Source of the DNA: a virus
Virus record (IMG/VR): IMGVR_UViG_3300024520_000445
Location: 1 to 25,815 of that record
Length of the DNA stretch: 25,815 bases
Reading direction: 5' to 3' (one strand)
This document shows positions 2,886-22,527 of the stretch, one piece after another; the first letter of the stretch is position 1, and each line of letters opens with the position of its first letter. Position numbers and translations under genes: made by a program. The notes under the pieces are model-generated. The model did no database searches. It had not been told where the DNA came from and saw only the letters and a list, made by a program, of their open reading frames with translations.

Positions 2886-3329
2886 ATGCCACGAAATATG
2901 TCTTTTATGTTGACAACAGAGCAGATCCGAAATAAAATAAAAACGGTAACTCGCCGTTGTGGTTGGGCTCAATTAAAAAGAGGAGAAATCGTCAATGCCT
3001 GCGTAAAGTGCATGGGATTGAAAAAAGGTGAAAAAATTGAAGTGCTTTGTCAAATCCGCGTTATTGATAAACGGATGGAACCTTTGAACGCGATAAATCA
3101 AGAGGACTGCATAAGAGAAGGTTTTCCGAACATGACACCGCAAGAGTTTGTGCTCATGTTCATGAAGCACATGAAATGTTCTGAATATCGCCCGGTAAAC
3201 AGAATTGAATTTGAATATGTGAACCAGGGTGATAACAATAGAATGAATGTGAGTTTGAAGGGGCGCGGGGAAGTATCGTGTCAAAACTCAGGTTCAGTGG
3301 CCGCGCCCCTTCAAACCACGTTATTTTAA
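2886..3329 (+). CDS. ASCH-domain-like phage protein with a repeat-derived C-terminus
   Basis: Residues 1-112 look like the phage ASCH-like family: KTVTRRCGWAQLKRGE, LKKGEKIEVL, IRVIDKRMEPLNAI, EDCIREGFPNMTPQEFVLMF and a final NRIEFEYV. ASCH proteins share a PUA-like beta-barrel thought to bind RNA or modified nucleotides. The natural domain ends near residue 112. The last roughly 35 residues (from NQGDNN) are encoded by the attC-like hairpin at 3230-3338, so the reading frame has been extended by the inserted element. The start is ATG at 2886, five bases after the preceding stop. Family assignment is from pattern memory and not tested. Confidence 0.6.
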   Translation: MPRNMSFMLTTEQIRNKIKTVTRRCGWAQLKRGEIVNACVKCMGLKKGEKIEVLCQIRVIDKRMEPLNAINQEDCIREGFPNMTPQEFVLMFMKHMKCSEYRPVNRIEFEYVNQGDNNRMNVSLKGRGEVSCQNSGSVAAPLQTTLF

Positions 3330-3338
3330 GCGTTAGAC
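3230..3338 (+). repeat. attC-like site A
   Basis: A TGATAAC box (3230-3236) opens the element and GTTAGAC (3332-3338) closes it; the latter fits the integron R' consensus GTTRRRY. Between them TTTGAAGGGGCGCGG pairs perfectly with CCGCGCCCCTTCAAA (stem 3253-3316 region), and the outer arms continue as an imperfect stem with bulges. This geometry is that of an integron cassette recombination site. The segment 3254-3332 recurs at 4842-4920 with a single difference. Confidence 0.65.
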
Positions 3339-3358
3339 GAACTCTCGAATGAGGATAC

Positions 3359-3496
3359 ATGATGGGGTACAATACAGATTTTAAAGGTGAATTGAAGTTC
3401 ATACCAGAACTAAAAGCCAGTCAACTTGCTTATATTCAGGGAATTTTAGGAGGAGACTGTCGTGATCATCCTGAATGGGGAACTTTATCAGGCTAA
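3359..3496 (+). pseudogene. Truncated phage conserved protein (N-terminal fragment)
   Basis: ATG at 3359 gives 45 residues that begin MMGYNTDFKGELKF and run through SQLAYIQGILGGDCRDHPEWG before a stop. From memory, this is the start of a common phage protein family in which YNTDF.GEL and G(E/G)DCRDHPEW are conserved, followed by a much longer domain. Here the domain is cut soon after HPEWG and replaced by AT-rich repeats. GAGGATAC upstream gives a plausible ribosome-binding site, so the fragment may still be translated. It is the first coding segment after site A and may be a captured and broken gene. A genuinely short paralogue cannot be excluded. Confidence 0.5.
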
Positions 3497-3500
3497 ATGC

Positions 3501-3530
3501 TAAAAAATACTAAAAAATACTAAAAAATAC
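3501..3530 (+). repeat. Three tandem 10-bp repeats (TAAAAAATAC)
   Basis: TAAAAAATAC is present three times in direct tandem and abuts the -35 box at 3531. AT-rich tracts at this position often act as an UP element or as operator sites (inference). Confidence 0.8.
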
Positions 3531-3559
3531 TTGACAAAAACTCTTCTTGATTGTATTGT
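3531..3559 (+). promoter_or_regulatory. Promoter for the accessory genes
   Basis: A consensus TTGACA (3531-3536) and TATTGT (3554-3559) are separated by 17 bases. Transcripts would start near 3566 and carry a leader of about 100 bases that includes the hairpin at 3629-3653. It points toward the gene at 3673 and the rest of the accessory block. Confidence 0.7.
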
Positions 3560-3580
3560 ATATCCGTAAGCTGAGACATA

Positions 3581-3665
3581 GAATAACAAAACAAGTAGAG
3601 ACATCATTGATAAAGCTCAAGTGTTCCGTGTGGCGGCGGCTAACGTCGCCACATCAAGCCGGGTG
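3581..3665 (+). repeat. Degenerate attC-like site H
   Basis: GAATAACAAAACAAG opens the element. An inner stem pairs TGTGGCG with CGCCACA around a short loop, and the element ends ATCAAGCCGGGTG, close to the AGCCGGGCGTTATC end of site D. The final GTTA box is missing, so if this is an attC it is worn. It could simply be a leader hairpin. Confidence 0.35.
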
Positions 3666-3672
3666 AAAAATT

Positions 3673-4221
3673 ATGGGATTACCAAAAGTTATATCAATAG
3701 AAGAATGGTTGAAACGAAATCCTGGGATTAAACAGGCTGAAGAAGAATCCAAAAAAGAATGTCACGAATGTTATGGTGAGGGATGGATCGAATGTGGAGG
3801 AAATATGTTGTCAATGCTAAATAAAAAAATAATCAGAAAGATTATTGAAACGAGTAATTTATTAAATGCGGTTTTTGATGCTGAATTATGTCAGAGTTGG
3901 GGGGACATTCCTGAATTTACAGAATTATACGCGGCTTTACCAGATTGGCTTACGGATGCAATTGATGCAGGCCAACTTGATTTTGATGGGGATTTTGACA
4001 GAGATTTTTGGGGGTCTGATAGTGTTGTGCAATTTTCGATTTATGCCATAAAAAAGGGCACACAGGGATTACGCGATCTTTCGGATCGGCTGGATGAATG
4101 GCAAGAACAGAATGAAAATGAGTATTCAGCATTCTGTGATGGTATGTCAAAAGCAGTATGGGCATTTATCCAGGTTCAAGAAAATTTTACAACGTTTGAT
4201 GCAATCGTGAGAGGTGGATAG
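3673..4221 (+). CDS. Hypothetical protein with DnaJ-type zinc-like motif
   Basis: 182 residues, with ATG at 3673 behind a weak CCGGGTGA site. Residues about 30-42 read CHECYGEGWIEC, a C-x2-C-x-G-x-G...C pattern like one half of the DnaJ cysteine-rich zinc module. The remainder is acidic and helical (FDGDFDRDFWGSDS, then LRDLSDRLDEWQEQNENEY). I recognise no family. The stop overlaps the GTG start of the next gene, so the two are translationally coupled and probably form one cassette behind the 3531 promoter. Confidence 0.6.
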   Translation: MGLPKVISIEEWLKRNPGIKQAEEESKKECHECYGEGWIECGGNMLSMLNKKIIRKIIETSNLLNAVFDAELCQSWGDIPEFTELYAALPDWLTDAIDAGQLDFDGDFDRDFWGSDSVVQFSIYAIKKGTQGLRDLSDRLDEWQEQNENEYSAFCDGMSKAVWAFIQVQENFTTFDAIVRGG

Positions 4222-4436
4222 TGGCAATTAAACCATTTGACATCTACTTTGGCCGCATTCAACAAGCCGGATCGAATATCCGGCTTGAACTCAAAAAACG
4301 ATTCCGTCAGGCGTTGGCGCATCGTGGAGTAGAAATTAAAAAGGGAATTGATATTCCTATGGCGGTGCAATCCGGCGAAGAAGATGGAATTATTGTCGTT
4401 AAATTATACTTCAAAAAATCAGGAATTGATGTATAA
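4221..4436 (+). CDS. Small hypothetical protein, coupled to upstream gene
   Basis: 71 residues from a GTG at 4221 that shares one base with the preceding TAG. AGAGGTGG just upstream is the ribosome-binding site. The protein is basic at the N-terminus (LELKKRFRQALAHRGVEIKK) and ends in a beta-like stretch (GIIVVKLYFKKSG). No family is recognised. Its stop codon lies inside the GTATAAC box of the next hairpin element, the same gene-to-element junction seen repeatedly in this block. Confidence 0.55.
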   Translation: MAIKPFDIYFGRIQQAGSNIRLELKKRFRQALAHRGVEIKKGIDIPMAVQSGEEDGIIVVKLYFKKSGIDV

Positions 4437-4519
4437 CAAGAAAAATGTCAGGCATGTATTGTGAGTGACACCGCGCACTTATGACAGTCATCACTCACAG
4501 TACATGTTTGGATGATAGG
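4431..4519 (+). repeat. attC-like site I (imperfect inverted repeat)
   Basis: GTATAACAAG (4431-4440) includes the preceding stop codon. TGTGAGTGA (4460-4468) pairs with TCACTCACA (4491-4499), and CATGTA (4453-4458) pairs with TACATG (4501-4506), giving a bulged stem with a 22-base loop. No clear GTTRRRY box closes it (GGATGATAGG instead). It is a degenerate cassette site or an unrelated hairpin. Confidence 0.4.
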
Positions 4520-4527
4520 TGAAATAT

Positions 4528-4833
4528 ATGTTGTTAACTGAAAAAGAAGAAAAAGCATTGATAGCTATTACAGAAGAAGCTCTTGAAAATATGGGTGGAG
4601 AAGAACCAAACGATTTACATGAAGATAATTTTTCATGGTTTAACCGTTCGGTAATCTCAACAAGGACTTGTTTCAGTAACCATGTTGCTGCTGGTCTGAT
4701 GTCATCTCTGGAAGAAAAAGGGCTTATTTTCCATAGTGAACCAGATCATGAATTCGGATGGTGTTTGGAAGAAGAGGGCATTGATAAAGCTCAAGCTTTG
4801 TTGTCGAATGATAGCCTTCTAACAATGGCGTAA
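4528..4833 (+). CDS. Hypothetical small acidic protein, possible winged-helix fold
   Basis: ATG at 4528 lies six bases after AGGTG and is preferred to the in-frame GTG at 4519. The 101-residue product begins MLLTEKEEKALIAITEEALENMGG. It contains VISTRTCFSNHVAAGLMSSLEEKGLI, a helix pair that resembles the recognition helix and wing of a winged-helix protein. No family is certain. The last codons (CTA ACA ATG GCG TAA) overlap the left end of site B, so the gene and the element are physically interlocked. Confidence 0.55.
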   Translation: MLLTEKEEKALIAITEEALENMGGEEPNDLHEDNFSWFNRSVISTRTCFSNHVAAGLMSSLEEKGLIFHSEPDHEFGWCLEEEGIDKAQALLSNDSLLTMA

Positions 4834-4920
4834 AATCGACTTTTGAAGGGGCGCGGGGAAGTATCGTGTCAAAACTCAGGTTCAGTGGCCGCCCCCCTTC
4901 AAACCACGTTATTTTAAGCG
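4817..4920 (+). repeat. attC-like site B (near-identical core to site A)
   Basis: TTCTAACAATGG begins the element inside the end of the upstream gene. The 79 bases at 4842-4920 match 3254-3332 with one substitution (GCCCCCC for GCGCCCC). The arms TTTGAAGGGG and CCCCTTCAAA form the stem, and TAAAAT matches on both outer arms. The right end reads AAGCGGAGG instead of AAGCGTTAGAC, so the R' box is lost and replaced by the next gene's Shine-Dalgarno. Confidence 0.6.
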
Positions 4921-4931
4921 GAGGTAGTATC

Positions 4932-5645
4932 ATGCAAGTCATATATGAGCCAACCGGAAAAGCGAAGGAATACGCAGATCTCGCCTGTAATCTGTATAAT
5001 GGGTGTACGCATGGCTGTCAATACTGCTATGCAAAACGATATAAGAAAGAAGAGTATTATACAGCAGCCAATCCGAAGAAAGATGTCATCGAAAAGCTCA
5101 AAAAAGACGTCGATCAACTGAATGGAAACACACCGGAAATTCTGTTGAGTTTTCAGGGTGACGTGTATCAACACGCAGAAATGGAACTCCAGTTGACTCG
5201 ACAATCTCTTGAAATCTTACGAGAGAAGAATTTACCGTTTACGATACTGACAAAAGGCGGAACGAGAGCAGTCAGAGATTTTGATATTTTGGAAGGGTAT
5301 CAAGCCAGATTTGGAACGTCTCTTGTGTGGCTCGAACAAGTTGATGCCAGCAAATATGAGCCGGGAGCAGCATTAATCGGCGACAGAATCGAAGCGATTG
5401 AACAAGCCAAGAAACGATGCATTCCGACATGGATCAGCCTTGAACCAGTAATTGACACTGAACAAGCTCTTGAACTGGTTTTTACATTACATTCTATTGT
5501 TGATTTTTGGAAAATTGGAAAGATTAATCACAATAAAGAGCTTGAGAGTCAATCTGATTGGTTGAAATTTCGAGAAGATATTACAGAAATGCTCGATAGA
5601 TTTCAATGTCAATATTACATCAAAAAGAGTCTCGCTGAACTATAA
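4932..5645 (+). CDS. Radical SAM protein (SPL/DUF5131-like, phage type)
   Basis: GGAGG at 4920-4924 sets the start at ATG 4932, giving 237 residues. An upstream in-frame start would read through site B and is rejected. The 4Fe-4S motif is C25-T-H-G-C29-Q-Y-C32-Y, the radical-SAM CxxxCxxC signature. It is preceded by CNLYNGC, as in spore-photoproduct-lyase-like enzymes. Downstream ILLSFQGDVYQ and LPFTILTKGG fit strands of a partial TIM barrel, and TWISLEPVIDT is a typical later strand. Such enzymes cleave SAM to a 5'-deoxyadenosyl radical. The substrate is unknown, with nucleic acid repair or modification plausible for the subfamily. The gene sits alone between two hairpin elements, as a single cassette would. 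Confidence 0.8.
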   Translation: MQVIYEPTGKAKEYADLACNLYNGCTHGCQYCYAKRYKKEEYYTAANPKKDVIEKLKKDVDQLNGNTPEILLSFQGDVYQHAEMELQLTRQSLEILREKNLPFTILTKGGTRAVRDFDILEGYQARFGTSLVWLEQVDASKYEPGAALIGDRIEAIEQAKKRCIPTWISLEPVIDTEQALELVFTLHSIVDFWKIGKINHNKELESQSDWLKFREDITEMLDRFQCQYYIKKSLAEL

Positions 5646-5652
5646 ACAGGTG

Positions 5653-5734
5653 AATAACGTGGTTTGAAGGGGCGGGCGAAATAATTGGGGAGGAGCAGGA
5701 CAAGTTTCAATCCTCCCTTAATATGCAATTCGCC
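5653..5734 (+). repeat. attC-like site C: left arm plus internal hairpin
   Basis: The 22 bases at 5653-5674 are the exact reverse complement of the right arm shared by sites A and B. This is what the left arm of a fully paired site of the same family would be. Immediately inside lies a second stem: GGCGAA (5675-5680) with TTCGCC (5729-5734), and GGGAGGA (5688-5694) with TCCTCCC (5711-5717). No matching right arm follows, so the site looks rebuilt or interrupted. Confidence 0.55.
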
Positions 5735-5871
5735 ATAACAATGCAAATGCACCAGACTTGAGGAACGCGGCGCAATTTCAGCATGGTTCTTCCGTTCAAG
5801 GGTTGTGGTTGTGTCGGGTGTGTTGCCCGCTACCGAGGGCGGGTTTCAGCAGGTGAAGCCGGGCGTTATCA
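5733..5871 (+). repeat. attC-like site D
   Basis: CCATAACAATGC opens and GAAGCCGGGCGTTATCA closes a 139-base noncoding element, with internal CCCGC/GCGGG and CACC/GGTG pairing. Length and ends resemble long chromosomal-integron attC sites. Together with site C it fills the 256-base gap between the radical-SAM gene and the gene at 5902. I see no ORF or promoter there. Confidence 0.5.
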
Positions 5872-5901
5872 TGCACTTGAAAGGAGAAAGGAGATTTGAA
5901 T

Positions 5902-6135
5902 ATGTTCGGTACAGTTGGGGATGCAGCAACGTTCATAGCTACGATGGGAGAAATGCAAATTTCGTATGCTAATAAGGATCTTTTTAAAATTGCGCACGCG
6001 CTAAATATAGCCTACAACAAAGGGATGCTTGATGGTTTATCGAAAGCAGATCATTCCGATCTTGTCGCTGAAACTGAACTTAATTTGAGCGATAGTCGGT
6101 CACATTTAAAAATAATTAGCCATGGCGCTGTATAA
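5902..6135 (+). CDS. Small hypothetical protein upstream of the methyltransferase
   Basis: ATG at 5902 follows AAAGGAGAAAGGAGAT. The 77-residue product begins MFGTVGDAATFIATMGEMQISY, then carries KDLFKIAHALNIAYNKGMLDGL, an amphipathic helix, and ends in a polar tail. No family is recognised. It overlaps the methyltransferase start by 14 bases, which implies translational coupling and possibly a shared function. The two genes together form the segment between site D and site E. Confidence 0.55.
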   Translation: MFGTVGDAATFIATMGEMQISYANKDLFKIAHALNIAYNKGMLDGLSKADHSDLVAETELNLSDSRSHLKIISHGAV

Positions 6136-6970
6136 AAATGGCATCAACCGGACGCAAAAGGCCGGTTCGGGATGGTACGAAATGTTGAGAAGGTTAGGAA
6201 AGAAAACGAATCTGTTACCCAAACTGCTGCCGTTATTCCCGGAAAACATTACGACGTTTATTGACATGTTCATGGGAAGCGGGGCTGTCACCTTCGCGAT
6301 GATTGACCGGGCAAAGTACATCATTTCAAATGACAAAGATGAAGATGTGTTTAACTTGTTCATGGTGCTTAAGGAACATAAGGAAGCACTTGAAGAGGCA
6401 ATCCGTATGATGCCCGTACATGACAAGCTCTTTCAATACTGGAAAGAGCAAGAAGAGAATGATTGTGTTTGGAAAGCGACACGCTTTTTATTTTTGTCAA
6501 ATTTTAGTTTTTTAGGGCATTCAGATACTCTTAATTTAGGGCAAAATAATTGTAAGCGCATACTGATCGACAAAATTAAAGACGCATTTGATTTGATTTC
6601 ATTTGTTCAGTTTGTAAATGACGATTTCAGGGATATTTTAAAAAGAATAGCGTTTAGGCATGAACTCGATTTGAATAGAGCTTTTATTTATGCAGATCCG
6701 CCATATATTGGAACGTCGAATAATTACGCAGAAGGTTTCACAGAAGATGATACACGGGATTTGTTTTCTATCCTGACAGGTTCAGGCATTCGTTTTGCCG
6801 TGTCGGAGTTCAATAATCCTCTCGTCATAGACATGGCAGAAGAACATGGTTTATTCGTCACAGAATTAGGCGAAAGGTGTAATTTAAAGAACAGACGGAC
6901 GGAAATCTTGATTACAAATTATGATCCGGTCAGACGGCAAATCAGTCTGTTTGACCTGGAAATGAACTAA
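6122..6970 (+). CDS. DNA adenine methyltransferase (D12 / Dam class)
   Basis: 282 residues, the usual length for D12-class N6-adenine methyltransferases. Motif I is DMFMGSG (residues 48-54), the SAM-binding FxGxG loop. Motif IV is DPPY (192-195), the catalytic site, in the order typical of alpha-group enzymes. The C-terminus LKNRRTEILITNYDP is the conserved family end. It transfers a methyl group from SAM to adenine in a short site. GATC is the common target but cannot be read from sequence. In phages such orphan enzymes protect against host restriction or mark DNA. No nuclease partner is present. Translation probably depends on coupling to the gene at 5902, since the region before ATG 6122 lacks a clear ribosome-binding site. 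Confidence 0.9.
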   Translation: MALYKNGINRTQKAGSGWYEMLRRLGKKTNLLPKLLPLFPENITTFIDMFMGSGAVTFAMIDRAKYIISNDKDEDVFNLFMVLKEHKEALEEAIRMMPVHDKLFQYWKEQEENDCVWKATRFLFLSNFSFLGHSDTLNLGQNNCKRILIDKIKDAFDLISFVQFVNDDFRDILKRIAFRHELDLNRAFIYADPPYIGTSNNYAEGFTEDDTRDLFSILTGSGIRFAVSEFNNPLVIDMAEEHGLFVTELGERCNLKNRRTEILITNYDPVRRQISLFDLEMN

Positions 6971-6973
6971 GGT

Positions 6974-7070
6974 GTCTAACAATGCGCCTGACTGCAAGCG
7001 CGAAGCCAGGAGATGAGATTATGAGAAGGAAGCAGAGGTTTGGTTGCCACTATGAACAGCGTACAGGCGC
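6974..7070 (+). repeat. attC-like site E
   Basis: GTCTAAC (6974-6980) fits the R'' consensus RYYYAAC exactly. Five bases later GCGCCTG (6984-6990) pairs with CAGGCGC (7064-7070). The spacing matches the R''-spacer-L'' layout of integron sites. The expected GTTRRRY partner is not clear in the following GTGTTTGGCGTCTGAC. The 281 bases from here to 7251 hold sites E and F and no supported gene. Confidence 0.5.
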
Positions 7071-7082
7071 GTGTTTGGCGTC

Positions 7083-7104
7083 TGACGCATAACGCTATGC
7101 GTCA
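7083..7104 (+). repeat. Perfect 9-bp inverted repeat
   Basis: TGACGCATA (7083-7091) and TATGCGTCA (7096-7104) flank a 4-base ACGC loop. It lies between sites E and F in DNA without a gene. It may be an operator, a small terminator-like hairpin without T-tract, or part of a merged element. Confidence 0.6.
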
Positions 7105-7134
7105 AATGGCGCAGTTGAAAATGATGTCGAATAA

Positions 7135-7235
7135 TGCCAACAAAACAGAATGGAAACGACTTTGAGGGGCGCGGCGTTGGTTGACATGTCAAACTCCGGT
7201 TTTCCCCTCAAACCGGCTCAATCTGGGCGTTATCT
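7135..7235 (+). repeat. attC-like site F
   Basis: TTTGAGGGG (7161-7169) pairs with CCCCTCAAA (7204-7212). Outer arms share AAC, CAGA and CG blocks with bulges, and the element ends CTGGGCGTTATCT. The central GTCAAACTCCGGTT is clearly related to GTCAAAACTCAGGTT in sites A and B, so F belongs to the same family. The interior also holds the palindrome TTGACATGTCAA. GTTATCT (7229-7235) is the R' box and starts the next cassette. Confidence 0.6.
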
Positions 7236-7251
7236 ATCAGGAGAAAAAATC

Positions 7252-7476
7252 GTGAGTACATACTATACATTGCAACAGTTAGCATATAACGATTATTTCG
7301 AAAAAAATAAAGAAAAAGTGTGGCAACCCGTAGAATTAGAAAGAGATAAATTCAAAGCTGAGACAGAAGAAGAAATTCTTTTGTATTTTGAAGACAAGAA
7401 AGATGAATTTGACCCTGGTGAATTAAGGGCATTGAAAATCGTTGAAGATATTGACCAAATAGACATCAATGAATAG
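7252..7476 (+). CDS. Small acidic hypothetical protein (single-gene cassette)
   Basis: AGGAG at 7239-7243 precedes GTG at 7252, giving 74 residues beginning MSTYYTLQQLAYNDYFEKN. An upstream in-frame ATG at 7150 would translate site F and is rejected. The protein is strongly acidic (ETEEEILLYFEDKKDEFDPGEL, ending VEDIDQIDINE), a profile shared with some DNA-mimic and anti-restriction proteins. This is suggestive only, and no family is recognised. The gene is bounded by exactly complementary boxes GTTATCT before and AGATAAC after. It is the clearest cassette in the window. Confidence 0.6.
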   Translation: MSTYYTLQQLAYNDYFEKNKEKVWQPVELERDKFKAETEEEILLYFEDKKDEFDPGELRALKIVEDIDQIDINE

Positions 7477-7492
7477 ATAACAATGCGCTGAC
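7475..7492 (+). repeat. attC-like site G, left arm only
   Basis: AGATAAC (7475-7481) overlaps the stop of the preceding gene and is the exact reverse complement of GTTATCT at 7229-7235. AATGCGCTGACC follows, closely matching AATGCGCCTGAC of site E. The right half is absent: the sequence passes straight into a methyltransferase remnant. Confidence 0.55.
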
Positions 7493-7499
7493 CAGGAAA

Positions 7500-7541
7500 G
7501 ATTTAAAGAACAGACGGAGGGAGATTTTAAATTACCACCTC
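7500..7541 (+). pseudogene. Remnant of a second D12 methyltransferase C-terminus
   Basis: The frame starting GAT TTA AAG encodes DLKNRRREILNY, matching NLKNRRTEILITNY at the end of the complete methyltransferase. The DNA is also similar (TTTAAAGAACAGACGGA shared with about 6886-6902). No upstream catalytic part exists, so this is a 3' fragment left at the boundary between the accessory block and the late operon. Sequence beyond 7541 (a CCACCTCCACCTCC run) may be more of the same remnant. Confidence 0.5.
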
Positions 7542-7903
7542 CACCTCCAAAAACGCCAAAAGGTACCGAATTGGAAGGATTCAATACAAAATTTGAAAAC
7601 ATTCCCAATGTTCCAGGGTTCAATCGTTGCTGTGAATCCGTTAATTTTTACTTTTGTTGAGCCTACGGCTGTCGCCGCGACTCTATAATCAAGAAAATTT
7701 TTTATGACAGATTCCGGGAGCCGAACGAATCCCATTCTATGCCCGCATGTCAAAATTCCGCAAAGAAATTTCCGCCATCGAGTCGGACGGTATTGAATAA
7801 TGCCCGATCTTTTATTTTTCAGGGTCATGAGTTCAATTTTATCGAGATCAATCATGTAATATCTGATAGGATCATTACTATAGGTCAATTTCCCTTCTTT
7901 CAT
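7532..7903 (-). CDS. Hypothetical protein, last gene of the late operon
   Basis: ATG at 7903 lies one base after the upstream gene's stop, giving 123 residues starting MKEGKLTYSNDP. A TTG at 7930 is possible but would sit inside that gene. The central part (SGIIQYRPTRWRKFLCGILTCGHRMGFVRLPESVIKNFL) is basic and contains a short hydrophobic stretch. The C-terminus FWRFWRWRW is Trp/Arg rich and is antisense to the methyltransferase remnant, so the natural protein may have ended near 7600 and been extended by insertion. Function unknown. Its place after a holin candidate fits a lysis or late accessory role, but nothing confirms this. Confidence 0.45.
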   Translation of the reverse strand: MKEGKLTYSNDPIRYYMIDLDKIELMTLKNKRSGIIQYRPTRWRKFLCGILTCGHRMGFVRLPESVIKNFLDYRVAATAVGSTKVKINGFTATIEPWNIGNVFKFCIESFQFGTFWRFWRWRW

Positions 7904-7904
7904 G

Positions 7905-8318
7905 TTAATGTCCCGGGTAGAATTTTGCAAGCTTTTCTATTTCTTCTTGAATATCTCTGTGTTGCTTGGCTGCCATTTCTATTTTTTTATCAAATCTTTC
8001 GATCTTATTGTGGATCTCTCCTCTCATGTCCTCTATGGCATGATTAATATTACTTAGAGCCTTCGTCATCTCTCTGATAGGAGAGACGAAGATATTGCCT
8101 AAATAGGACACCACAATAACTATAGCAAGAGCAATCCCTGGTGTGCTGTTCAATAGGGGGAGAACCTCTTTCAATCTATTTGTTTGATCATCTGTCATTC
8201 CAGACAAGAACCAGAGTATCCCTCCCATTATTACTGGCAACGCATAAGGGCCATTAAGGAGCGGAAGAAATATAGATAGCGAACTCTGTTTTAAATCTTT
8301 AATTTCCTTCGTTGGCAT
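7905..8318 (-). CDS. Membrane protein with two TM segments and coiled coil (holin candidate)
   Basis: 137 residues. Two hydrophobic stretches are visible: about residues 18-40 (PLLNGPYALPVIMGGILWFLSG) and about 60-78 (TPGIALAIVIVVSYLGNIFV). A helical, charged tail with coiled-coil character follows (IEDMRGEIHNKIERFDKKIEMAA). Two TM segments with a cytoplasmic tail, a position after the tail genes and the lack of other lysis genes suggest a holin. No endolysin is recognised in the window, so the assignment is tentative. It could instead be a spanin-like or anchoring protein. Confidence 0.5.
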   Translation of the reverse strand: MPTKEIKDLKQSSLSIFLPLLNGPYALPVIMGGILWFLSGMTDDQTNRLKEVLPLLNSTPGIALAIVIVVSYLGNIFVSPIREMTKALSNINHAIEDMRGEIHNKIERFDKKIEMAAKQHRDIQEEIEKLAKFYPGH

Positions 8319-8324
8319 TATTTC

Positions 8325-8561
8325 TTATTTCTGTAATTTACAAAAACTTGTCTCAGCAATGATCTGGTGAGTGTTCTCAAATCCTCTCGCCATGAGAGTT
8401 TCTTCAATTTCATCAGCCTCGATACATTTCAAAAGAGCGTACATTGATTTGATAGTGAGATGGATCGCAGGTCGCCTGTCTTCCAAATTAAGCAAATCTT
8501 TAGCCGTCTCTTCAAGTGTTTCTGTCACAATTTCGACAATTTCATCAAGTTTGTATTTCAC
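8325..8561 (-). CDS. Small hypothetical helical protein
   Basis: 78 residues from a GTG at 8561 preceded by a G-rich AGGGGGG site. Acidic and helical throughout (VEIVTETLEETAKDLLNLEDRR, then KCIEADEIEETLMARGF). No known family. It overlaps the upstream gene end by 17 bases, so the two are coupled. Confidence 0.5.
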   Translation of the reverse strand: MKYKLDEIVEIVTETLEETAKDLLNLEDRRPAIHLTIKSMYALLKCIEADEIEETLMARGFENTHQIIAETSFCKLQK

Positions 8562-8796
8562 ATTCCCCCCTGATTCGATCCTCTTCTCTTTCTAAAATTG
8601 CTTGGCGTAAATACATAACAAGATCAAGTGCTTCTTCATAGGCTTCAATGAGTGCATCCTTCCCATTCATGGTTCTCAAATAAATTCCGTAATGTTCTTT
8701 TCCTTCTTCTGCCCTCTGTATTATATCATTGATCACAATGTCAACGACTTTTTGCCCGTTTCCTGCTGGTATCTCTTGTTTTTTATTCGCGTCCAT
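8545..8796 (-). CDS. Hypothetical phage protein, MazG-like helix pattern
   Basis: 83 residues from ATG 8796 behind a G-rich site. The stretch VVDIVINDIIQRAEEGKEHYGIYL followed by GKDALIEAYEEALDLVMYLRQAI resembles small phage proteins annotated near the all-alpha nucleotide pyrophosphohydrolase group, where E-E-x-x-D acidic positions bind metal. Here EAYEEALD supplies such residues. If correct it would hydrolyse a non-canonical NTP. The resemblance is from pattern memory, so function is only a suggestion. Confidence 0.45.
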   Translation of the reverse strand: MDANKKQEIPAGNGQKVVDIVINDIIQRAEEGKEHYGIYLRTMNGKDALIEAYEEALDLVMYLRQAILEREEDRIRGECEIQT

Positions 8797-8860
8797 GTTT
8801 CCCCCAATTTAGCATGGTTTTGATCCATTTGAGTCAAATTTTTTTAACGTGGTGAACCCA

Positions 8861-9283
8861 TTACAGAGCCTCCTTGTTTCTGTCATACTTTTCTTGAAGC
8901 CAAATGAGGACTTCTTCAGGAGTTTCAGATCGGGCGGCTTCTGTAATCATTTGTACTAAAATCTCATCCCGATCTAATATCTCTGTCGTTTCCGTAACCT
9001 CGGTCAAATTCCGAATTGTCGATGCGATCTTTGAGATCGGGCTTACGAATGCTTGGAAAGTTTCGATTTCATCAATATGCGCATTGGCGTTCTGCGCCAA
9101 TTTAAAAATAATGGACACAAGAAGTAGGATTACATCTCTCTTTGTCACAGCAGGCTCTTTGACGTTGCTGGTTTTGCGGTATACCCAAGCCTGGGATACC
9201 CCAAGCTTTCGGCAAATATCAGAGATTTTAACCCCACTACTCCGTAAAAATTGTGCGTAATCCGCGACCCTGGTTGTTTTCAT
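8861..9283 (-). CDS. Helix-turn-helix protein in the late operon
   Basis: 140 residues from ATG 9283, one of few late genes without an obvious Shine-Dalgarno site. The N-terminus YAQFLRSSGVKISDICRKLG then SQAWVYRKT is a helix-turn-helix of the resolvase/transposase-like type. A hydrophobic segment (VILLLVSIIFKLA) and an acidic helical C-terminus follow (AARSETPEEVLIWLQEKYD). It may regulate late genes or act in DNA packaging. A terminase small subunit often carries such an HTH, but the position here after tail genes is unusual for one. Confident about HTH, not about role. Confidence 0.55.
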   Translation of the reverse strand: MKTTRVADYAQFLRSSGVKISDICRKLGVSQAWVYRKTSNVKEPAVTKRDVILLLVSIIFKLAQNANAHIDEIETFQAFVSPISKIASTIRNLTEVTETTEILDRDEILVQMITEAARSETPEEVLIWLQEKYDRNKEAL

Positions 9284-11440: not shown

Positions 11441-14400
11441 AATTCTCTCCTTACGTTAATCTTTGCTTCATTGCTGGTCAGGAAGAGCAAACCGGTTGAC
11501 TCGAAAAATACTTCGTACAATGAGATGAGGCTTAATAATTGTAATTGAGCCTGGAAATTATCAAGATTTATTTCAAGGCCGCGTAATTCAAAAATAGTGT
11601 TCTCCTGTACTTCCCCGTTATTATCCCGTAGCAGAGAAAAAGAACCCTCTATATGATCATAAAGATCTAAAATAAGAAATTTTGTGTCTTGGCCTGAATA
11701 GTTGAGTATCCAATCAGGAAAACGATAAAAGTCAAAAATCGCGGCTATAATTGTGTCAACGGTGGCTGTGTTGCGTGTCCAATCGAAAGCTAATGACCAT
11801 TTTCGATCCCCATAAATCCCTACGCTTTGGCCTTCTGACACTTCATCAGCCGTTCGGAAATAGGAAGTCAGGGCATTATTTTTAAATCGTCTGTCCACGT
11901 CGGCTGATGATAACGCATAATCAATAATAAGCCGATTACACACATTTGCGATTGATTTTTGAATATCGTAATGTATGGCATTATATTCTTGCACTTCTTC
12001 AACAATTTTCGGGGTAATGGACAGTGGACGCAAATATACATCAAGTGTCCCATCCTCCGCAAAATTGAACCATCCCAAAAAAGAATTGAGGATATTTTGC
12101 AGCCAATATCCTAATGTATTATTTGATAGGATAATCCCGGCGCAGGTATAGCCATTCTGATCAGCCGCATTGGTCGCGTCAGAAAAGGAACGCTGCCCTT
12201 TTTGCCACGTGACATCAAGCAATGTCGCAACATAATCAAGGAAATCGTCAATGACCGAGATCGGATTCGTGATTAATGTTCCCCCATCATCTTTTCCTTT
12301 ACATCTCACAGTCACCACACCGCCAGGGTCTGAGGCAAAGTCAAGGATCGCAATGTTTCCTTGACTTTCATAGTCATTGGATTCGTCAAAAACCCAACCT
12401 GATGGCGTTTCTACACCATCAACGTAAACGGTAACGACATTCCCATTAGCAACCGATAGGAGAGGCCACCCCGAAACGCAATAAACAAAATTGACTGTAT
12501 CTATCCCTGGCGCAGTCCAGACGGCTTCATCGGAATTTTCGGTCATATCTCCGTAGACGAGAGGCAGATTGACATTTTGTTGATTTTCACCTGGATCAGC
12601 ATATCTCCCGGCAGTGGGCATGATAATCTCCGTGAGAGCCTCGACTCCATCTTCAACTGATGTTGTACTTATTATTTCCTCAATTTCTCCGAATTCCTCC
12701 CATACCCCATCAACAAGAGCCGTGTCAAGCCCTTGTATCAATTCAGGGAAATCTGTTAAAAGATTGTCGTTATCAATATTTTGGAAAATGGACAGAGGTA
12801 TTCCGGCAAGGGTTGATGTGATAATTTTGTAAATTCCACCACCATCGCCCAAGCCCCCCCCTCCAAAGTCTTTCCCGATTATTAAGGTATCATTTCCTTC
12901 ATCATCTGTATTCATCAAAGAAACATCTTGGTTAAATTTTTGAATCCTATCATTTCCAGTATCACAAATGTATAATTTATTGTTGCTGTCAAGGGCGATA
13001 CCTTGCACTCCCTGGAATTGCCCATCACCTGACCCTGATGTCCCAAACTCATACAACTCTTGACCTGTATATCCGATATATCTTATCTCTGTTGAAAACC
13101 CACCATAGAAAAAAAGGGGAGCCAATTTAATTTGCTTTATTAGATTGCCTGGCGTTGTTGCAATGTTGATATTTTTGACAAAAATAAGATCTAAATCTCG
13201 AACGTTTACCCTGTCGTTTACGCTATCTGCAATGTACAGATGTACCCCGTCTGTATCAACGCCAAATGGTGCATTAAATTGATCATCCCCACTCCCAAAA
13301 CTTCCCACATCATCTATAAAAGTCAAGGATGTATTATGTTTCCGAATTTTATCATTATTGTTATCAGCGGTATAAAGAAAAGTACCATCAGTACAAATTC
13401 CTCCCCCTGTAACCCCATCAAAAAGATACACGCTATCAACCAAAGTAAATGTCAAAGTGTATTTAGCAATATTGACTTTGTTGATTGTGTCTTCATAAAC
13501 TTCATACACATAAAAATAATCACCATCAGTACAGATATCTATCGGGAGTTGACCCGTAAAATCAGTCAAATTATAGAGAGCTACAAAATTAAGATCTGTA
13601 TCTCTTTTTACGATACGATTATTTCCAAAATCGCAAATATACAAAAAATTATTTAAAATTACAATCCCTGTTGGATCATCTAAATTATCATTTCCTGAAC
13701 CAGGCGATCCATATTTTGAATTAAAAGTAAGTAACGCGGGGAGGGGTTGTACATCTGAATTCAGGTAGAAATCCCTACAGGTGATTGAAGCACTCGCGGG
13801 ATCCATCGTGAAAGTAAGTTGTGAGAGTTCTTGTTGATTGATGGTAATGCCATCAAAAGTGATCGCTCTGAGGTCTTGTGGAGCCGATGGGCTGGCACTA
13901 TTCCAATAGATGTAGGGATGGTTATCACTGTCGAGGCCGACAAGAAGCCGTGTATTTCCATAGGCATCATTTTCGATTTCAAGGATGTGTTGATCAACTC
14001 CAAGATCATCAACGACAAAAGTTGTCGTGAGAACCCAATAGTCTTCGGTATAAAACGCATCCTGAAGTTCAGCATAGGTAAAACTTTCTTCAGCCCCAGT
14101 ATTTCCTATCCCTGGATTCCGCATTGAGTAGAGTGTTTCTGTATTAATGGTTGGATCATCCGGTTCGGTGTTTTTTACAGCCTGATTCGCCGATATTTGG
14201 ATAGAGAGCGTTGACATTTCTACGCTTTGGATGATCCCGTTAAAAAGTGGCTGAAGATCAGCAAAAGATGAGTCAAAATACCCCTGAAAAATTAACAATT
14301 GTTGTCCGATTAATTCTTCTCTCGCCAATAAATTAGTAAAGTATTCATCGGCATTGTCACAAGTGAGAGTATAGCTTGACATTTCCGTTTGTGATAGAGT

Positions 14401-14628
14401 TTGCAGGATATTATTTGAATTCTCAGATAACGATTTCCGAAATGTGCCGAATGAGAGAACCCGCGCTGACCAATCTATAATATTGTATGGTGTTCCTGTA
14501 ACATGGTCTCCCGTTGGCGTCTCCTTACCGACCACATGGCATCCAAGATTTGAAAAAACGAATGCCAAAATAAAAGGTTTGTCGCCTCGCATTCTTGCAG
14601 CATTGTATGTTTCTGAGAAACGTCTCAT
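11437..14628 (-). CDS. Large tail-tip protein with an NHL-type beta-propeller
   Basis: 1063 residues, start ATG 14628 overlapping the upstream stop (ATGA). Residues 1-150 and about 620-1063 look like a distal-tail or tail-hub scaffold (early LTCDNADEYF, late NFAEDGTLDVYLRPLSITP and FELRGLEINLDNFQAQLQLLSL). Residues about 190-300 are a LamG-like beta-sandwich. Residues about 305-570 hold NHL-type blades: GIVILNNFLYICDFGNNRIVK, GVDTDGVHLYIADSVNDRV and GIALDSNNKLYICDTGNDRIQK, with two weaker ones (GDYFYVYEVYEDTINKV, GTFLYTADNNNDKIRK). NHL propellers bind proteins, RNA or glycans. On a tail tip, host recognition is the simplest idea (inference). Confidence 0.7.
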   Translation of the reverse strand: MRRFSETYNAARMRGDKPFILAFVFSNLGCHVVGKETPTGDHVTGTPYNIIDWSARVLSFGTFRKSLSENSNNILQTLSQTEMSSYTLTCDNADEYFTNLLAREELIGQQLLIFQGYFDSSFADLQPLFNGIIQSVEMSTLSIQISANQAVKNTEPDDPTINTETLYSMRNPGIGNTGAEESFTYAELQDAFYTEDYWVLTTTFVVDDLGVDQHILEIENDAYGNTRLLVGLDSDNHPYIYWNSASPSAPQDLRAITFDGITINQQELSQLTFTMDPASASITCRDFYLNSDVQPLPALLTFNSKYGSPGSGNDNLDDPTGIVILNNFLYICDFGNNRIVKRDTDLNFVALYNLTDFTGQLPIDICTDGDYFYVYEVYEDTINKVNIAKYTLTFTLVDSVYLFDGVTGGGICTDGTFLYTADNNNDKIRKHNTSLTFIDDVGSFGSGDDQFNAPFGVDTDGVHLYIADSVNDRVNVRDLDLIFVKNINIATTPGNLIKQIKLAPLFFYGGFSTEIRYIGYTGQELYEFGTSGSGDGQFQGVQGIALDSNNKLYICDTGNDRIQKFNQDVSLMNTDDEGNDTLIIGKDFGGGGLGDGGGIYKIITSTLAGIPLSIFQNIDNDNLLTDFPELIQGLDTALVDGVWEEFGEIEEIISTTSVEDGVEALTEIIMPTAGRYADPGENQQNVNLPLVYGDMTENSDEAVWTAPGIDTVNFVYCVSGWPLLSVANGNVVTVYVDGVETPSGWVFDESNDYESQGNIAILDFASDPGGVVTVRCKGKDDGGTLITNPISVIDDFLDYVATLLDVTWQKGQRSFSDATNAADQNGYTCAGIILSNNTLGYWLQNILNSFLGWFNFAEDGTLDVYLRPLSITPKIVEEVQEYNAIHYDIQKSIANVCNRLIIDYALSSADVDRRFKNNALTSYFRTADEVSEGQSVGIYGDRKWSLAFDWTRNTATVDTIIAAIFDFYRFPDWILNYSGQDTKFLILDLYDHIEGSFSLLRDNNGEVQENTIFELRGLEINLDNFQAQLQLLSLISLYEVFFESTGLLFLTSNEAKINVRREF

Positions 14629-15704
14629 ACCTTCGGAACCTCCTCTAAAATCATTTCAACCCCGCTATTGAGAAGATACCTAAAATATTCAAAAGTCCAT
14701 TCCCCTAAGTTATCCCAAGTCATCAGATTGAGTGCGCTTTGCTCATCAGAAAACAGGTGGCACCAAAGAGGGGCAACCTGTGAACCGAGAACAAGAGCGT
14801 TTTGCATCGTGACAAGAGCGTCTTTGTCCTCATTACTTAAGAGATTCCCGAAATTTAGATGAAGCGTCCGTTGACCGGCATATTTATAGCGTCTACTGAC
14901 TCCTGCCTCGCTCTCGTTTTTTTGCAAAATGTAGCCTTCCTGCTGTGAACTCCCCCATTCAGCATTGAGTCTTTCCAAAGAGAGGACAGTCCCTAAAAAC
15001 AAATTGTTGATGCGGATCACCGCTTCAGGATTAGAGGGATCTGCAATATTTATACGAGAATATTGATATATTTCATCGAAATACAATATCAACGGATCTG
15101 TTATTGTAGGGAATGTGAAAGTATAAGATGGTGCCCCCCATGAATCAGAGGGATTCTCTTCAAATATTACTGTAGCCGATGCTGTTAAATTGTGATCTTG
15201 CAAGATTAGAGCTTGTTTTTGTACAGCCCCCCCCGCGTCTATTACGATATTTTCCGATGTGTCTCCCGTAGACTTCCATCCCGTCATTCGATTGCGATCA
15301 AGCAGTCTTTCAAATCCATAAGTTGCTTTGACATAAAATTGCCAGGAATCACCAACGACAAAATCAGTCCCCGTGCCTCCTTGAAACGAAATTGTCAAAC
15401 CATCCTCTAACGTTGTCACGGGGGTTGTCATTGTGACCACCCCTGTTTGTTCCCATGCCCCGGCTGTATCTGAAGACCGCCAGCGTACCGTCGCCTGACC
15501 GATCTCACTGCCAGCCGAAACAGAGTCACACTCAACCAGATATGTTCTGTCGTTTGTGCCGGAATACACACCTCCCACAGTCATAGAGGCGACACCCTTG
15601 CCCTCTTTTGCCGCGTAACTATATTTGCCGTTGGCCTGGGATGACAGCGTAATTGTTGCGGATTCAGCTAAATTCTCATATAAGAATTTTAGAGTTCCAT
15701 ACAT
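14625..15704 (-). CDS. Tail protein, probable distal tail component
   Basis: 359 residues between the tape measure and the tail-hub gene, the usual place of the distal tail protein. The sequence is beta rich (VIFEENPSDSW, YTFTFPTITDPLILYF, INIADPSNPEAVIRINNLFLG), then GEWTFEYFRYLLNSGVEMILEEVPKV at the end. The segment ATVRWRSSDTAG with SFQGGTGTDFVVGDSWQFYV resembles the beta-repeat domains found in virion proteins. No specific family is claimed. Position and composition support a structural tail role. Confidence 0.6.
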   Translation of the reverse strand: MYGTLKFLYENLAESATITLSSQANGKYSYAAKEGKGVASMTVGGVYSGTNDRTYLVECDSVSAGSEIGQATVRWRSSDTAGAWEQTGVVTMTTPVTTLEDGLTISFQGGTGTDFVVGDSWQFYVKATYGFERLLDRNRMTGWKSTGDTSENIVIDAGGAVQKQALILQDHNLTASATVIFEENPSDSWGAPSYTFTFPTITDPLILYFDEIYQYSRINIADPSNPEAVIRINNLFLGTVLSLERLNAEWGSSQQEGYILQKNESEAGVSRRYKYAGQRTLHLNFGNLLSNEDKDALVTMQNALVLGSQVAPLWCHLFSDEQSALNLMTWDNLGEWTFEYFRYLLNSGVEMILEEVPKV

Positions 15705-15709
15705 AGAAA

Positions 15710-18355
15710 TTACCCTTGGATCGACATTCGCTCGAGTTTTTGTAGTCCTTTGTTGGTTTCTCTGATATATTGCTGCCGCGATGCGTCGTTCACAATGTTT
15801 TGCCCTTGGAAAACAATTGTTGCCCCCGCAGCCTGGCTGCGTCTCTGCGTGTCCTGCGCGGATTGACCTGTAATTTGATTCGTGTTGAACTGCTGTTGTG
15901 TAGCTTGTTGTTGTGTAGCTTGAAGTAGTTCTTTCCTGATTGATGAGGGGAGATTAGATTGGCTAATGGCAAGTCTTTGACTGTTCATGTTGGAAAGGGT
16001 TTGACCCGTATTTTTCCCGGCTTTCGCTACCGCCGACAACGCGGACACTGAAGCACCAAATCCCGAATTGAGGTTTGAAACAGCCCCAATATTTTTTCCG
16101 ATCCACTCTTGCATATCAGGAAAAGTACTATTCCCGAAAGCTTCCTGCCCGACATCTTTTAATTTGCCAACAATGCTTCCAATTGCGCTTGCAAGCTTGC
16201 CCACCGCACCTATCGAGTCATTCACAAATTTAACCAGTGAGGAAAAGACATTTTCGATTCCACTGCCTAACTTTTGAATGCTGTCAAGAGGGCTTGTAAA
16301 GATCTTAGATAACCCTTGTGCTATTTCAATAAAGCCCTGTATCGCGGTCTTTGACGTTTCAAAACCAGAAACCAGCATGTCAAAAAAAGGCTCAAAAACA
16401 CTTCCGATGTCTGATGCAGTGTCGCGGATAGTCTCCCAGGCGATCCGAAAAATATCAACCGCCCCCCCAGCTTTTTCAACCCAGCCCATAACTTCCTTGA
16501 TCGCTGCAACAATATCAAGGAGAATATTTTCTGCCTGTTTCAATTTTGGAAATACCATCACGAGCGAATCCCATACACTCATCCCATGCTGAATTGCTCC
16601 GGTAAAGGTTTCAAATTTTGAAATCAGACTAATAATAGCAAGTTTCGCTGACTCAATCCCGTCTGGAATCCCATGCATGAAAAAGTCTTGTAGAGCCTCT
16701 GACGTCTTTATCCATTCAACAAATTGATTCACCAGAGGGATTATATCAGTTTGCACAAGCGATTCCAGGGACGCTCGAAGCTGATCAGCGATCCCGGAAG
16801 CTCCGATCCACTGCTGAAAATCCATTGCAGTTTGGTTGACAACGCTCAGAAAGCTTTTGATCGCGGGCAACATCGCATCAGTCAATTGCCCTGTGGTATT
16901 GATCCAGATTGTCCCTAACGCTTGCCATAATTGAGACACACGAGAGATTGAATTTATGAATTCAGCATTGATCGAATTCATGTTTGTCAAGCCTTGATTG
17001 GCGGGGTTTAAGAATTTTGTCTCCAACTCCGTCCCTAAATTTGCTAAACCCAATATAGCCGTTGATACCCCCGCCCCGGAGATTTTCAATTCAGATAAGG
17101 CTGCTGATACTTGTTGGACACCGCCTGGCGTTTCAGTTGCCATTTTTTGGACATGTTGTAAAAAGACCACCATAGCCTGCCCCATGTCCTCTTGAACCAA
17201 TTTATTGAATGCTGCCACATTGATCCCAAATGTAGTAGCAAACTCATCTGTGCTCCCTGTCATTGCTTTGAATGCGCTTTGAAGGGCTGTTGCTGACGTG
17301 AACGATGAAACGCCCATAGCATCCATCGCCCCTGAAAATCCGATAAGATCTCCTTGTGATAGCTTAAATACGGATAAGGCAGGCGCGGCTCTTTTGGCAA
17401 TTTCTATCATAGAGGGAGCCGCAGCCCTTGTCGAATCGGCTAAAATATTAAAAGCATTTCCCAACTGACCGATGGTTGCCTGACTCCCTGGAAAAGCTCC
17501 CTGTATTTTACCGAGTGCATCGGCTGTTTTTCCGAAGGAAAGATCAAGAGCCACAGAAGCTTTCGCAACATCTTCTGTAAATTTAAGGGCTTGTCTTGAT
17601 GATTTCTCAAAATCTTCCCCTGACAAGATTCCCCGTCGCCCGGCGACTTCTAAAACTTCGCCTAATTCTTCGGCTGTGACTGCCCCTTGTAATTGTACAG
17701 AAGAGAGATCTCTTACCGATTTAGCTAAATCAGTCATTTGCTCTTCCGTTAAATTCCCTGTTCTTTTCGCCCCTGACAAGGCATCTTCCAACGAGACGGA
17801 ACTTTTAAAGGCTTTATCAAATTCATCAACAAGTACTCCACCGACTTTTTTCACAAGGTCAAACACAGCCGTCAAAGCATCTAACGCCAGTGACGCAAAA
17901 CCAGTGACCGCTGCCGTTGCGATTTTAAACCCTGTCTCGAAAGCACGCCCTAACCCTTTAATATTTTCTTTTAGCGATACAAACGATTCTATTGATTCAA
18001 TAACAGCATCCCGCATTTTTCGTAATTCGTTGGCGTAAAAATCTTTAATACGAGATGCCAAACTTTTAGTTGCTTCCTTTGCCTCCTGGGTTGCCTTGTC
18101 ATATACCGACAACGCATCTTTGACAGTTTTAATTTTGGGGGCAAGATCGGTAACTGTCTTTTGCAGATCGCTAAAAACCTGAGAACCCGTAGCTCCTATT
18201 CTTTGCAATGTTTTCGACATAATCAAGAGGATCTTATCAAGTTCTTTTGAGCTTTTCAACAGGCTCTCAAAGTGCTTATCCCAAGCGGAAAATACAGCCT
18301 CCGCGTCATCATCAACTTTTATCTCAAAAATAAGAGTATCCGTTGTAGTTGCCAT
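15710..18355 (-). CDS. Tail tape measure protein
   Basis: 881 residues, the second longest protein here, rich in Ala/Ser/Lys/Gln and helical. Residues about 200-420 (LTEEQMTDLAKSVRDLSS, AVTAEELGEVLEVAGRRG, IEIAKRAAPALSVFKLSQ, FSGAMDAMGVSSFTSATALQ) match the conserved N-terminal core of TP901-type tape measure proteins. Hydrophobic and amphipathic segments follow, and the C-terminus is Gln-rich. Its length sets tail length, and it is threaded into the tail tube during assembly. The chaperone genes lie just upstream, as usual, with one morphogenesis gene between. Confidence 0.9.
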   Translation of the reverse strand: MATTTDTLIFEIKVDDDAEAVFSAWDKHFESLLKSSKELDKILLIMSKTLQRIGATGSQVFSDLQKTVTDLAPKIKTVKDALSVYDKATQEAKEATKSLASRIKDFYANELRKMRDAVIESIESFVSLKENIKGLGRAFETGFKIATAAVTGFASLALDALTAVFDLVKKVGGVLVDEFDKAFKSSVSLEDALSGAKRTGNLTEEQMTDLAKSVRDLSSVQLQGAVTAEELGEVLEVAGRRGILSGEDFEKSSRQALKFTEDVAKASVALDLSFGKTADALGKIQGAFPGSQATIGQLGNAFNILADSTRAAAPSMIEIAKRAAPALSVFKLSQGDLIGFSGAMDAMGVSSFTSATALQSAFKAMTGSTDEFATTFGINVAAFNKLVQEDMGQAMVVFLQHVQKMATETPGGVQQVSAALSELKISGAGVSTAILGLANLGTELETKFLNPANQGLTNMNSINAEFINSISRVSQLWQALGTIWINTTGQLTDAMLPAIKSFLSVVNQTAMDFQQWIGASGIADQLRASLESLVQTDIIPLVNQFVEWIKTSEALQDFFMHGIPDGIESAKLAIISLISKFETFTGAIQHGMSVWDSLVMVFPKLKQAENILLDIVAAIKEVMGWVEKAGGAVDIFRIAWETIRDTASDIGSVFEPFFDMLVSGFETSKTAIQGFIEIAQGLSKIFTSPLDSIQKLGSGIENVFSSLVKFVNDSIGAVGKLASAIGSIVGKLKDVGQEAFGNSTFPDMQEWIGKNIGAVSNLNSGFGASVSALSAVAKAGKNTGQTLSNMNSQRLAISQSNLPSSIRKELLQATQQQATQQQFNTNQITGQSAQDTQRRSQAAGATIVFQGQNIVNDASRQQYIRETNKGLQKLERMSIQG

Positions 18356-18361
18356 AGTTCC

Positions 18362-18769
18362 TTAAGGTGTCAAAAACGCCTTTCGGACGGTGTTTTTGAC
18401 ACGTTCGATTTCCGAAGGAATAAGTTTTATATATTTTCTGATAGGCATTTTTGATGTCCCGTACTGGTGATAAATTCCATATAGAGGGGAAAAGATCCTA
18501 TTGATGTGCATCCCCGCCGTGTGTATCCATTCACGGGCTGTACTTTCCGCTCTGTTTTTCATGCGTGATGTTTTGTTCAGGATAGGCCAAGTATATGGCC
18601 TTGTACGCGATTGCCATTTAGGATTGCGTCCACCGTCATCAATATTTTTTTTAATGCTGCTGGCTATTTGTTCTCCTATTTTGTTATACATCTTAGGATT
18701 TTGACCGGAAAATAATCTCTTCCGTTTTCTCATGTCGTCACGTGCTTTTTTTAACCCCTCTATAGGCAT
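18362..18769 (-). CDS. Virion morphogenesis protein (Mu gpG-like tail completion)
   Basis: Start chosen at ATG 18769 because TGAGG lies six bases before it. ATGs at 18805 and about 18784 have no such site and lie deeper in the upstream gene. The 135-residue product has MPIEGLKKARDDMRKRKRLF, KMYNKIGEQIASSIKKNID, GRNPKWQSRTRPYTWPIL and a C-terminal YGIYHQYGTSKMPIRKYI. The last motif, HQYG....P.R.f/y, is the hallmark of the Mu G family and HK97 gp10-like proteins. The family closes the head-tail interface or tail terminus. In most siphoviruses this gene lies with the head-tail connectors. Here it lies between the chaperone pair and tape measure. Confidence 0.75.
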   Translation of the reverse strand: MPIEGLKKARDDMRKRKRLFSGQNPKMYNKIGEQIASSIKKNIDDGGRNPKWQSRTRPYTWPILNKTSRMKNRAESTAREWIHTAGMHINRIFSPLYGIYHQYGTSKMPIRKYIKLIPSEIERVKNTVRKAFLTP

Positions 18770-19079
18770 GTACAACCTCATCATTGATAATGGATAGCAT
18801 CTCAAAAGCTACTAAAAACTCTATTCCATAGGCATTACAAATCTTGCTGATAAGTACATGGTCAAGCGTGTTTTCTGTGTGATTGTACAAAACTACTGCA
18901 TTAAAAAAATCGAGCCATGCGTTAAGCTCAGGTGGCAGAAATGCGGGATGCCCGTGCTTGCTACATGGCAATGTTTGACAACACGAGGGAATTTTGAGGG
19001 GAGGGATCTTTTGTATGAGTGCCTCCCTATGACACTCTTGACACTCATCCCCCCCATCCCACATTGCATAACGTCTTAT
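18738..19079 (-). CDS. Tail assembly chaperone, frameshift extension (T-like)
   Basis: This frame has no Shine-Dalgarno site before its first ATG (19064). It is however open without a stop from the A9 run that ends the preceding gene, in the -1 frame, reading KKK-IRRYAMWDGGDEC. The extension is Cys rich (DECQECHREA, CCQTLPCSKHGH), which suggests a metal site, then helical (LNAWLDFFNAVVLY). In lambda and many other long-tailed phages the upstream gene makes protein G alone or a G-T fusion by -1 frameshifting, and both coat the tape measure before tail assembly. Expression as a fusion is inferred from the geometry. Separate initiation cannot be excluded. Confidence 0.7.
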   Translation of the reverse strand: MRRYAMWDGGDECQECHREALIQKIPPLKIPSCCQTLPCSKHGHPAFLPPELNAWLDFFNAVVLYNHTENTLDHVLISKICNAYGIEFLVAFEMLSIINDEVVHAYRGVKKST

Positions 19080-19516: not shown

Positions 19517-19518
19517 AA

Positions 19519-20901: not shown

Positions 20902-20911
20902 TATTTGTCTC

Positions 20912-21855: not shown

Positions 21856-21857
21856 TT

Positions 21858-22334: not shown

Positions 22335-22527
22335 TATTTTGACTCCTCTCCCAACTTACAAGATGTTGTTTGTTTTTGAAATTTAAACCTCGTTCCTTAC
22401 AAATTCTCTCAGACGACGACAACACTTCAAGCATGTTGTCCCCTGTGACAACATGCTTAGAGCCATCAGTTAACATCATATTCATGATAATCACGTCTTT
22501 TTTAGCGGTCTTCTTTTGGGTGGACAT
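22324..22527 (-). CDS. Small hypothetical protein after the major capsid gene
   Basis: 67 residues with perfect AGGAGG before ATG 22527. Basic start (STQKKTAKKD), then VIIMNMMLTDGSKHVVTGDNMLEVLSSSERICKERGLNF, a beta-beta-alpha-like pattern. No family recognised. Overlaps the signal-peptide gene by 11 bases. Confidence 0.5.
   Translation of the reverse strand: MSTQKKTAKKDVIIMNMMLTDGSKHVVTGDNMLEVLSSSERICKERGLNFKNKQHLVSWERSQNNEK

Follow-up and report, generated by a model that had tools for sequence, protein, structure and literature searches.

We propose that the region from about 3.2 to 7.5 kb of the phage sequence studied here is a short, partly decayed cassette array of bacterial style, lacking an integrase of its own, a reading to which we assign a probability of roughly 0.9. 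The window, i.e. the whole stretch of DNA that was analysed, is the linear IMG/VR virus record IMGVR_UViG_3300024520_000445 (25,815 bases), a fragment of an uncultured tailed phage. Left of the cassette region, family searches identify + strand genes for a replication initiator and a DnaB-like helicase, and a leftward module of tail, tape measure and head genes, starting at ~7.9 kb, occupies the right side of the window. The cassette region itself, located between the rightward replication genes and the leftward structural genes, contains small + strand ORFs, mostly with no known family, together with one radical SAM gene and one D12 adenine methyltransferase gene.

A second contig, IMGVR_UViG_3300024518_005604, is 99.9% identical to the window where the two were compared (6140-9028 and 12545-25815). 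It begins to match at 6140, runs up to 25815 and extends the sequence by 5.8 kb, the structural module continuing there with portal and terminase genes. The attC sites A, D and E2 (see below) and everything left of 6140 have the support of a single contig. Neither the window nor the second contig, both of which are fragments, matches the tyrosine recombinase family PF00589; because the record is a fragment, it is possible that an integrase is encoded elsewhere in the phage.

The 79-nt repeat

The initial annotation described a hairpin element of 79 nt present in two copies, and this observation holds: positions 3254-3332 and 4842-4920 are identical at 78 of 79 positions, GCGCCCC against GCCCCCC being the sole difference. 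Such a match is far above chance, and the flanks of the two copies give no ungapped alignment. A fourth relative proposed at 5653-5674 is indeed the exact complement of 3304-3325 over 22 nt (20 nt when compared with the second copy). The third, at 7161-7212, is a real relative and has the stem in common, but the central loop word, said to be shared as well, is similar rather than identical (GTCAAACTCCGGTT at 7161-7212 vs GTCAAAACTCAGGTT in the 79-mer). The right ends of the two copies continue differently, as had been noticed: AAGCG|TTAGAC in the first against AAGCG|GAGG...ATG in the second, where the GTTA box is gone after 4920 and a Shine-Dalgarno sequence stands instead (GGAGG, 7 nt before the ATG at 4932).

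The boundaries of the repeat are informative. On the right it stops exactly at the G of G^TTRRRY, where attC sites are cleaved (AAGCG^TTAGAC), and on the left at the foot of the inner stem, implying that the full sites are longer than the repeat (site A, 3230-3338; site D, 4817-4920). At full length, sites A and D are 85% identical. That the 79-nt element represents the stem, loop and right arm, i.e. the inner part, of an integron attC site is well supported.

attC sites along the window

Two covariance models were used to score the sites: R1, built on 11 attC sites from a bacterial array (L007, see below), a Shewanella prophage and a Vibrio phage, with none from the window, and R2, a wider model of 33 sites. 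The E-values of R1 given in the following list are rough owing to a short calibration.

3230..3338, + strand: attC site A, complete (R1 50.1 bits, E 5.5e-11; R2 59.4 bits)
3254..3332, + strand: first copy of the 79-nt sequence repeat, within site A
4431..4520, + strand: tentative half attC C, formed by a DNA hairpin and an R'' (GTATAAC) on the stop codon of the 4221-4436 ORF
4817..4920, + strand: attC site D, apparently decayed, holding the second 79-nt copy (R2 18.2 bits)
4842..4920, + strand: second copy of the 79-nt sequence repeat, within site D
5643..5674, + strand: half site; at the stop codon of the radical SAM gene an R''-like TAAAC, followed by the arm 5653-5674
5733..5871, + strand: attC site E2, complete, with a long loop; R'' CCATAAC, R' GTTATCA (R1 22.3 bits, E 0.0011; R2 22.6 bits)
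6974..7079, + strand: tentative attC F; R'' GTCTAAC 7 nt past the methyltransferase stop codon, weak right half
7135..7235, + strand: attC site G, complete; R' GTTATCT (R1 21.9 bits, E 0.0014; R2 23.2 bits)
7475..7492, + strand: half attC H, tentative and without a right half; its R'', AGATAAC, adjoins the stop codon of the 7252-7476 ORF

Site A carries the R'' (YAAC) and R' (GTTRRRY) boxes at its outer ends, as TGATAAC and GTTAGAC respectively, and between them an L'' arm with two extra bases, the stem, the loop and the L' arm, the cut falling after 3332. Its spacing (17 nt on the left, 16 nt on the right) is that of a textbook site, the spacers are unpaired and the extra bases, a G and an A, are confined to the left arm, a layout shared by L007 7094-7203. 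Folded as DNA, site A has a z-score of -4.8, with a strong inner stem and imperfectly pairing outer arms. Site D has an R'' box (TTCTAAC), an altered L'' and one stem mismatch, and it lacks the GTT of the R' box, AAGCG being followed by GAGG; missed by R1 under default filters, it reaches 7.4 bits with the filters off. Judged from the loss of its R' box, site D is probably inactive. We also considered that the right end of D arose by cassette integration at a secondary (attG) site, which is disfavoured because G^GAG misfits the attG consensus, GWT.

A geometry scanner, which looks for an AAC box, a spacer, complementary arms and a GTT box, gave site A a score of 21.8 vs a top score of 16.2 among 20 dinucleotide shuffles of the window. 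The structure of R1 is supported by covariation, the observed score being reached by none of 500 shuffles, and with default filters this model finds three sites in the window, A, E2 and G, all on the + strand. R2 matches the same sites and also D. With filters off, R1 run on the whole window lists A (26.4 bits) and G (16.1 bits) as partial matches and leaves E2 unlisted, and the full-length R1 scores are those obtained with default filters; R2 run in the same way on 4380-7650 gives G 23.2, E2 22.7 and D 18.2 bits. As positive controls, R1 recovered those sites of the Vibrio array that were not in its training set, as well as two sites of phage TJE1 at 20-22 bits. At E<=1 over 248 kb, its only hits were sites belonging to known arrays plus the second contig's copy of G; nothing else emerged at this threshold from control phage stretches L006, L004, L005 and L019.

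The strong model match is A alone; E2 and G barely exceed 20 bits and D is weak. Site G, which has a 2-nt insertion in the R'' spacer, is also found in the second contig. The tentative sites C, F and H are placed by position only, the models giving no support: C reaches only 4 bits and misses the outer right arm, and F, which scores 9.8 in the geometry scan (background level), is missed by R1 and R2. From its sequence, the 5643-5674 arm may be a left half devoid of the extra bases or else a right half in inverted orientation. Like this arm, D, C and H appear to be decayed; the window would illustrate several stages of decay, and, as far as sequence can tell, only the complete sites A, E2 and G could remain substrates for an integrase. 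Between the tentative site F and site G, a palindrome, TGACGCATAACGCTATGCGTCA, occupies 7080-7110.

Cassette genes and layout

The ORFs and gene remnants of the region are the following:

2886..3329, + strand: ORF upstream of attC A, running into the site; no known family
3673..4221, + strand: cassette ORF; no known family, no relative in an IMG/VR search
4221..4436, + strand: cassette ORF, 71 aa; no known family
4528..4833, + strand: cassette ORF, 101 aa; stop codon within the left part of attC D
4932..5645, + strand: radical SAM protein, DUF5131/PA0069-like (weak family matches), directly 3' of attC D
5902..6135, + strand: small cassette ORF
6122..6970, + strand: D12 (Dam-like) adenine-N6 DNA methyltransferase (PF02086, E 1.7e-17; phrog_56, E 3e-48)
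7252..7476, + strand: small cassette ORF after attC G
7501..7528, + strand: putative 28-nt remnant, like the 3' part of the D12 methyltransferase gene (89% to 6882-6909)

In each cassette, an attC site would close a unit of one or two + strand ORFs. We thus read the layout, from left to right, as ORF 2886 with A; ORFs 3673 and 4221 with half site C; ORF 4528 with D; the radical SAM gene with the half site at 5643-5674; then E2; ORF 5902 and the methyltransferase gene with the tentative F; G; ORF 7252 with half site H; and, at the right end, the 28-nt stretch, which resembles the conserved 3' part of D12 methyltransferase genes and may be what is left of a second one. The region contains four + strand occurrences of the word TAACAATG (R'' plus spacer), vs 0.16 in shuffles, and at four of the eight ORFs a TAACAA box is found within 13 nt of the stop, a count somewhat inflated by TAA stop codons alone.

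PADLOC, run on the cassette genes, returned only matches of methyltransferase type and weak radical SAM matches. The methyltransferase cassette plausibly shields the phage DNA from restriction. The radical SAM protein has a phage relative, 60% identical, in L004, a stretch in which the model found no attC. By eye, we also spotted 17 identical bases (CATTGATAAAGCTCAAG) at 3607-3623 and 4779-4795; because the latter sits in the 4528-4833 ORF, the former may be a gene remnant.

A related bacterial array

The initial annotation expected that the element would lead to a host genome with many copies. This was not borne out: a paired-stem search of 84,980 species genomes gave a single matching site in a single contig, JAFGIK010000063.1 (stretch L007), where the stem and loop edges are those of the 79-nt element. 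The best relative of site A is L007 7094-7203, 75% identical over 110 nt. With the geometry scanner, L007 shows four strong sites and the remainder of the contig two more, which identifies the contig as a bacterial cassette array. One of its attC sites has the stem, spacing and extra bases of site A, whereas its remaining attC sites and its genes differ from those of the phage. Among the cassette genes of the array (L007/L020), which has at least six attC sites, are some for ABC transporters and one for an NB-ARC/TPR-like protein. Binning assigns the contig to 'Ca. Dojkabacteria', and two other contigs of the bin carry attC; since R1 detects no attC sites in 17 of 18 other relatives of the bin, JAFGIK010000063.1 may be misbinned.

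Alternative explanations

Could the hairpin be a phage-specific repeat, i.e. a terminator or regulatory hairpin copied between small genes and unrelated to integrons? The exact element and two stem patterns are absent from the other IMG/VR contigs searched, and the inner stem is strong, both in favour of this reading. We nevertheless consider this highly improbable because (i), the bacterial cassette array holds an attC of the same subtype, contradicting the case, allowed for in the initial annotation, of a phage repeat with no link to cassettes or host arrays; (ii), three sites are recognised by an attC model whose training set excluded the window, with E-values (rough, as noted above) down to 5.5e-11; and (iii), a terminator needs no R''/R' boxes, yet both are present and correctly spaced outside the stem. 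An assembly chimera, in which a fragment of a bacterial array was fused to a phage contig, is scarcely credible either: while the sequence left of 6140 is found in one contig only and the second contig ends inside the methyltransferase gene, phage replication genes lie to the left of the array, and the second contig has site G and the methyltransferase gene adjoining the structural genes.

A more serious rival, although we hold it to be somewhat unlikely, is that the second 79-nt copy did not come with a second cassette but formed within the phage, where gene conversion or a template switch at the palindrome would have produced it. Stem, loop and right arm are conserved at 78/79, whereas D has a different left outer arm, whose pairing with its right arm is poor; 22 nt of the right arm recur nearby in inverted orientation, and the attC sites of the bacterial array are more varied. 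However, the ORF that goes with D ends at an R'' box proper to D, as in a separate cassette, and known arrays contain very similar sites: in the array of the Vibrio phage MK672802, pairwise attC identities range from 58 to 96% (median 72%; the L007 sites are more varied), the most similar ones being beside different genes. Near-identical attC sites beside different genes are thus ordinary, which makes gene conversion unnecessary and leaves the similarity, by itself, of little weight as a sign of recent spread or gene conversion. The cassette array remains our preferred reading, and the two near-identical sites would then represent one attC subtype on two cassettes.

Class assignment and known phage arrays

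A CALIN, a cluster of attC sites lacking an integron integrase, needs at least two clustered attC sites (PMC9024848). Sites A, E2 and G lie within ~4 kb on one strand, no integron integrase is found nearby in the window and the second contig, both fragments, and within the available sequence no intI stands beside the array, as it would in a complete integron. The array is very probably a CALIN carried by a phage. CALINs were reported in phages, including methyltransferase cassettes, by Qi et al. 2023 (PMC9892861; TJE1, PH101, P12002L and phage MW202573), who also assayed TJE1 attC sites, and the present cluster is a further example of this kind. Like the window, these CALINs are attC clusters without an integrase, in tailed phages, with small ORFs mostly of unknown function; P12002L and MW202573 also carry a DNA methyltransferase cassette, and the TJE1 sites have model scores (20-22 bits) near those of the window sites. 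The window differs in that it belongs to another, uncultured phage known from sequence alone, with another attC subtype and several seemingly decayed sites. The Vibrio anguillarum phage Va_90-11-286_p16 (MK672802) likewise carries a cassette array with similar attC sites, but there it is a complete integron, with intIA and homogeneous Vibrio-type sites, in a temperate phage that acquired part of its host's array. The uncultured phage described here thus lengthens the short list of phages known to carry integron cassettes, and a methyltransferase gene is once more among the cassettes.

Acquisition would start with entry of the phage into an integron-bearing host, or with recombination with the DNA of such a host. 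The host integron integrase (IntI) would then join folded single-stranded attC sites and thereby place cassettes in the phage, the insertion point being the junction of the rightward replication genes and the leftward structural genes. It is tempting to speculate that the array is live, the lineage gaining and losing cassettes through its hosts' integrases during infection, in a slot at a fixed replication/structural junction. We regard this as distinctly unlikely; if it were so, phages would ferry cassettes from one bacterium to another. Should the complete sites be functional, phages would offer a route for cassette movement between bacteria.

The phage and its relatives

A capsid search gave the second contig as sole relative and matched no isolate; a terminase search matched isolates only distantly, and neither search pointed to a host. 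For the helicase, the methyltransferase and the 3673-4221 ORF, relatives were either absent or limited to the second contig. BLASTN of the region against plasmids and phages gave no match, nor did Rfam at E<=1 anywhere in the window. Within the replication initiator gene, tandem 21-nt repeats at 700-888 encode a repeated LAELNTS-like heptapeptide.
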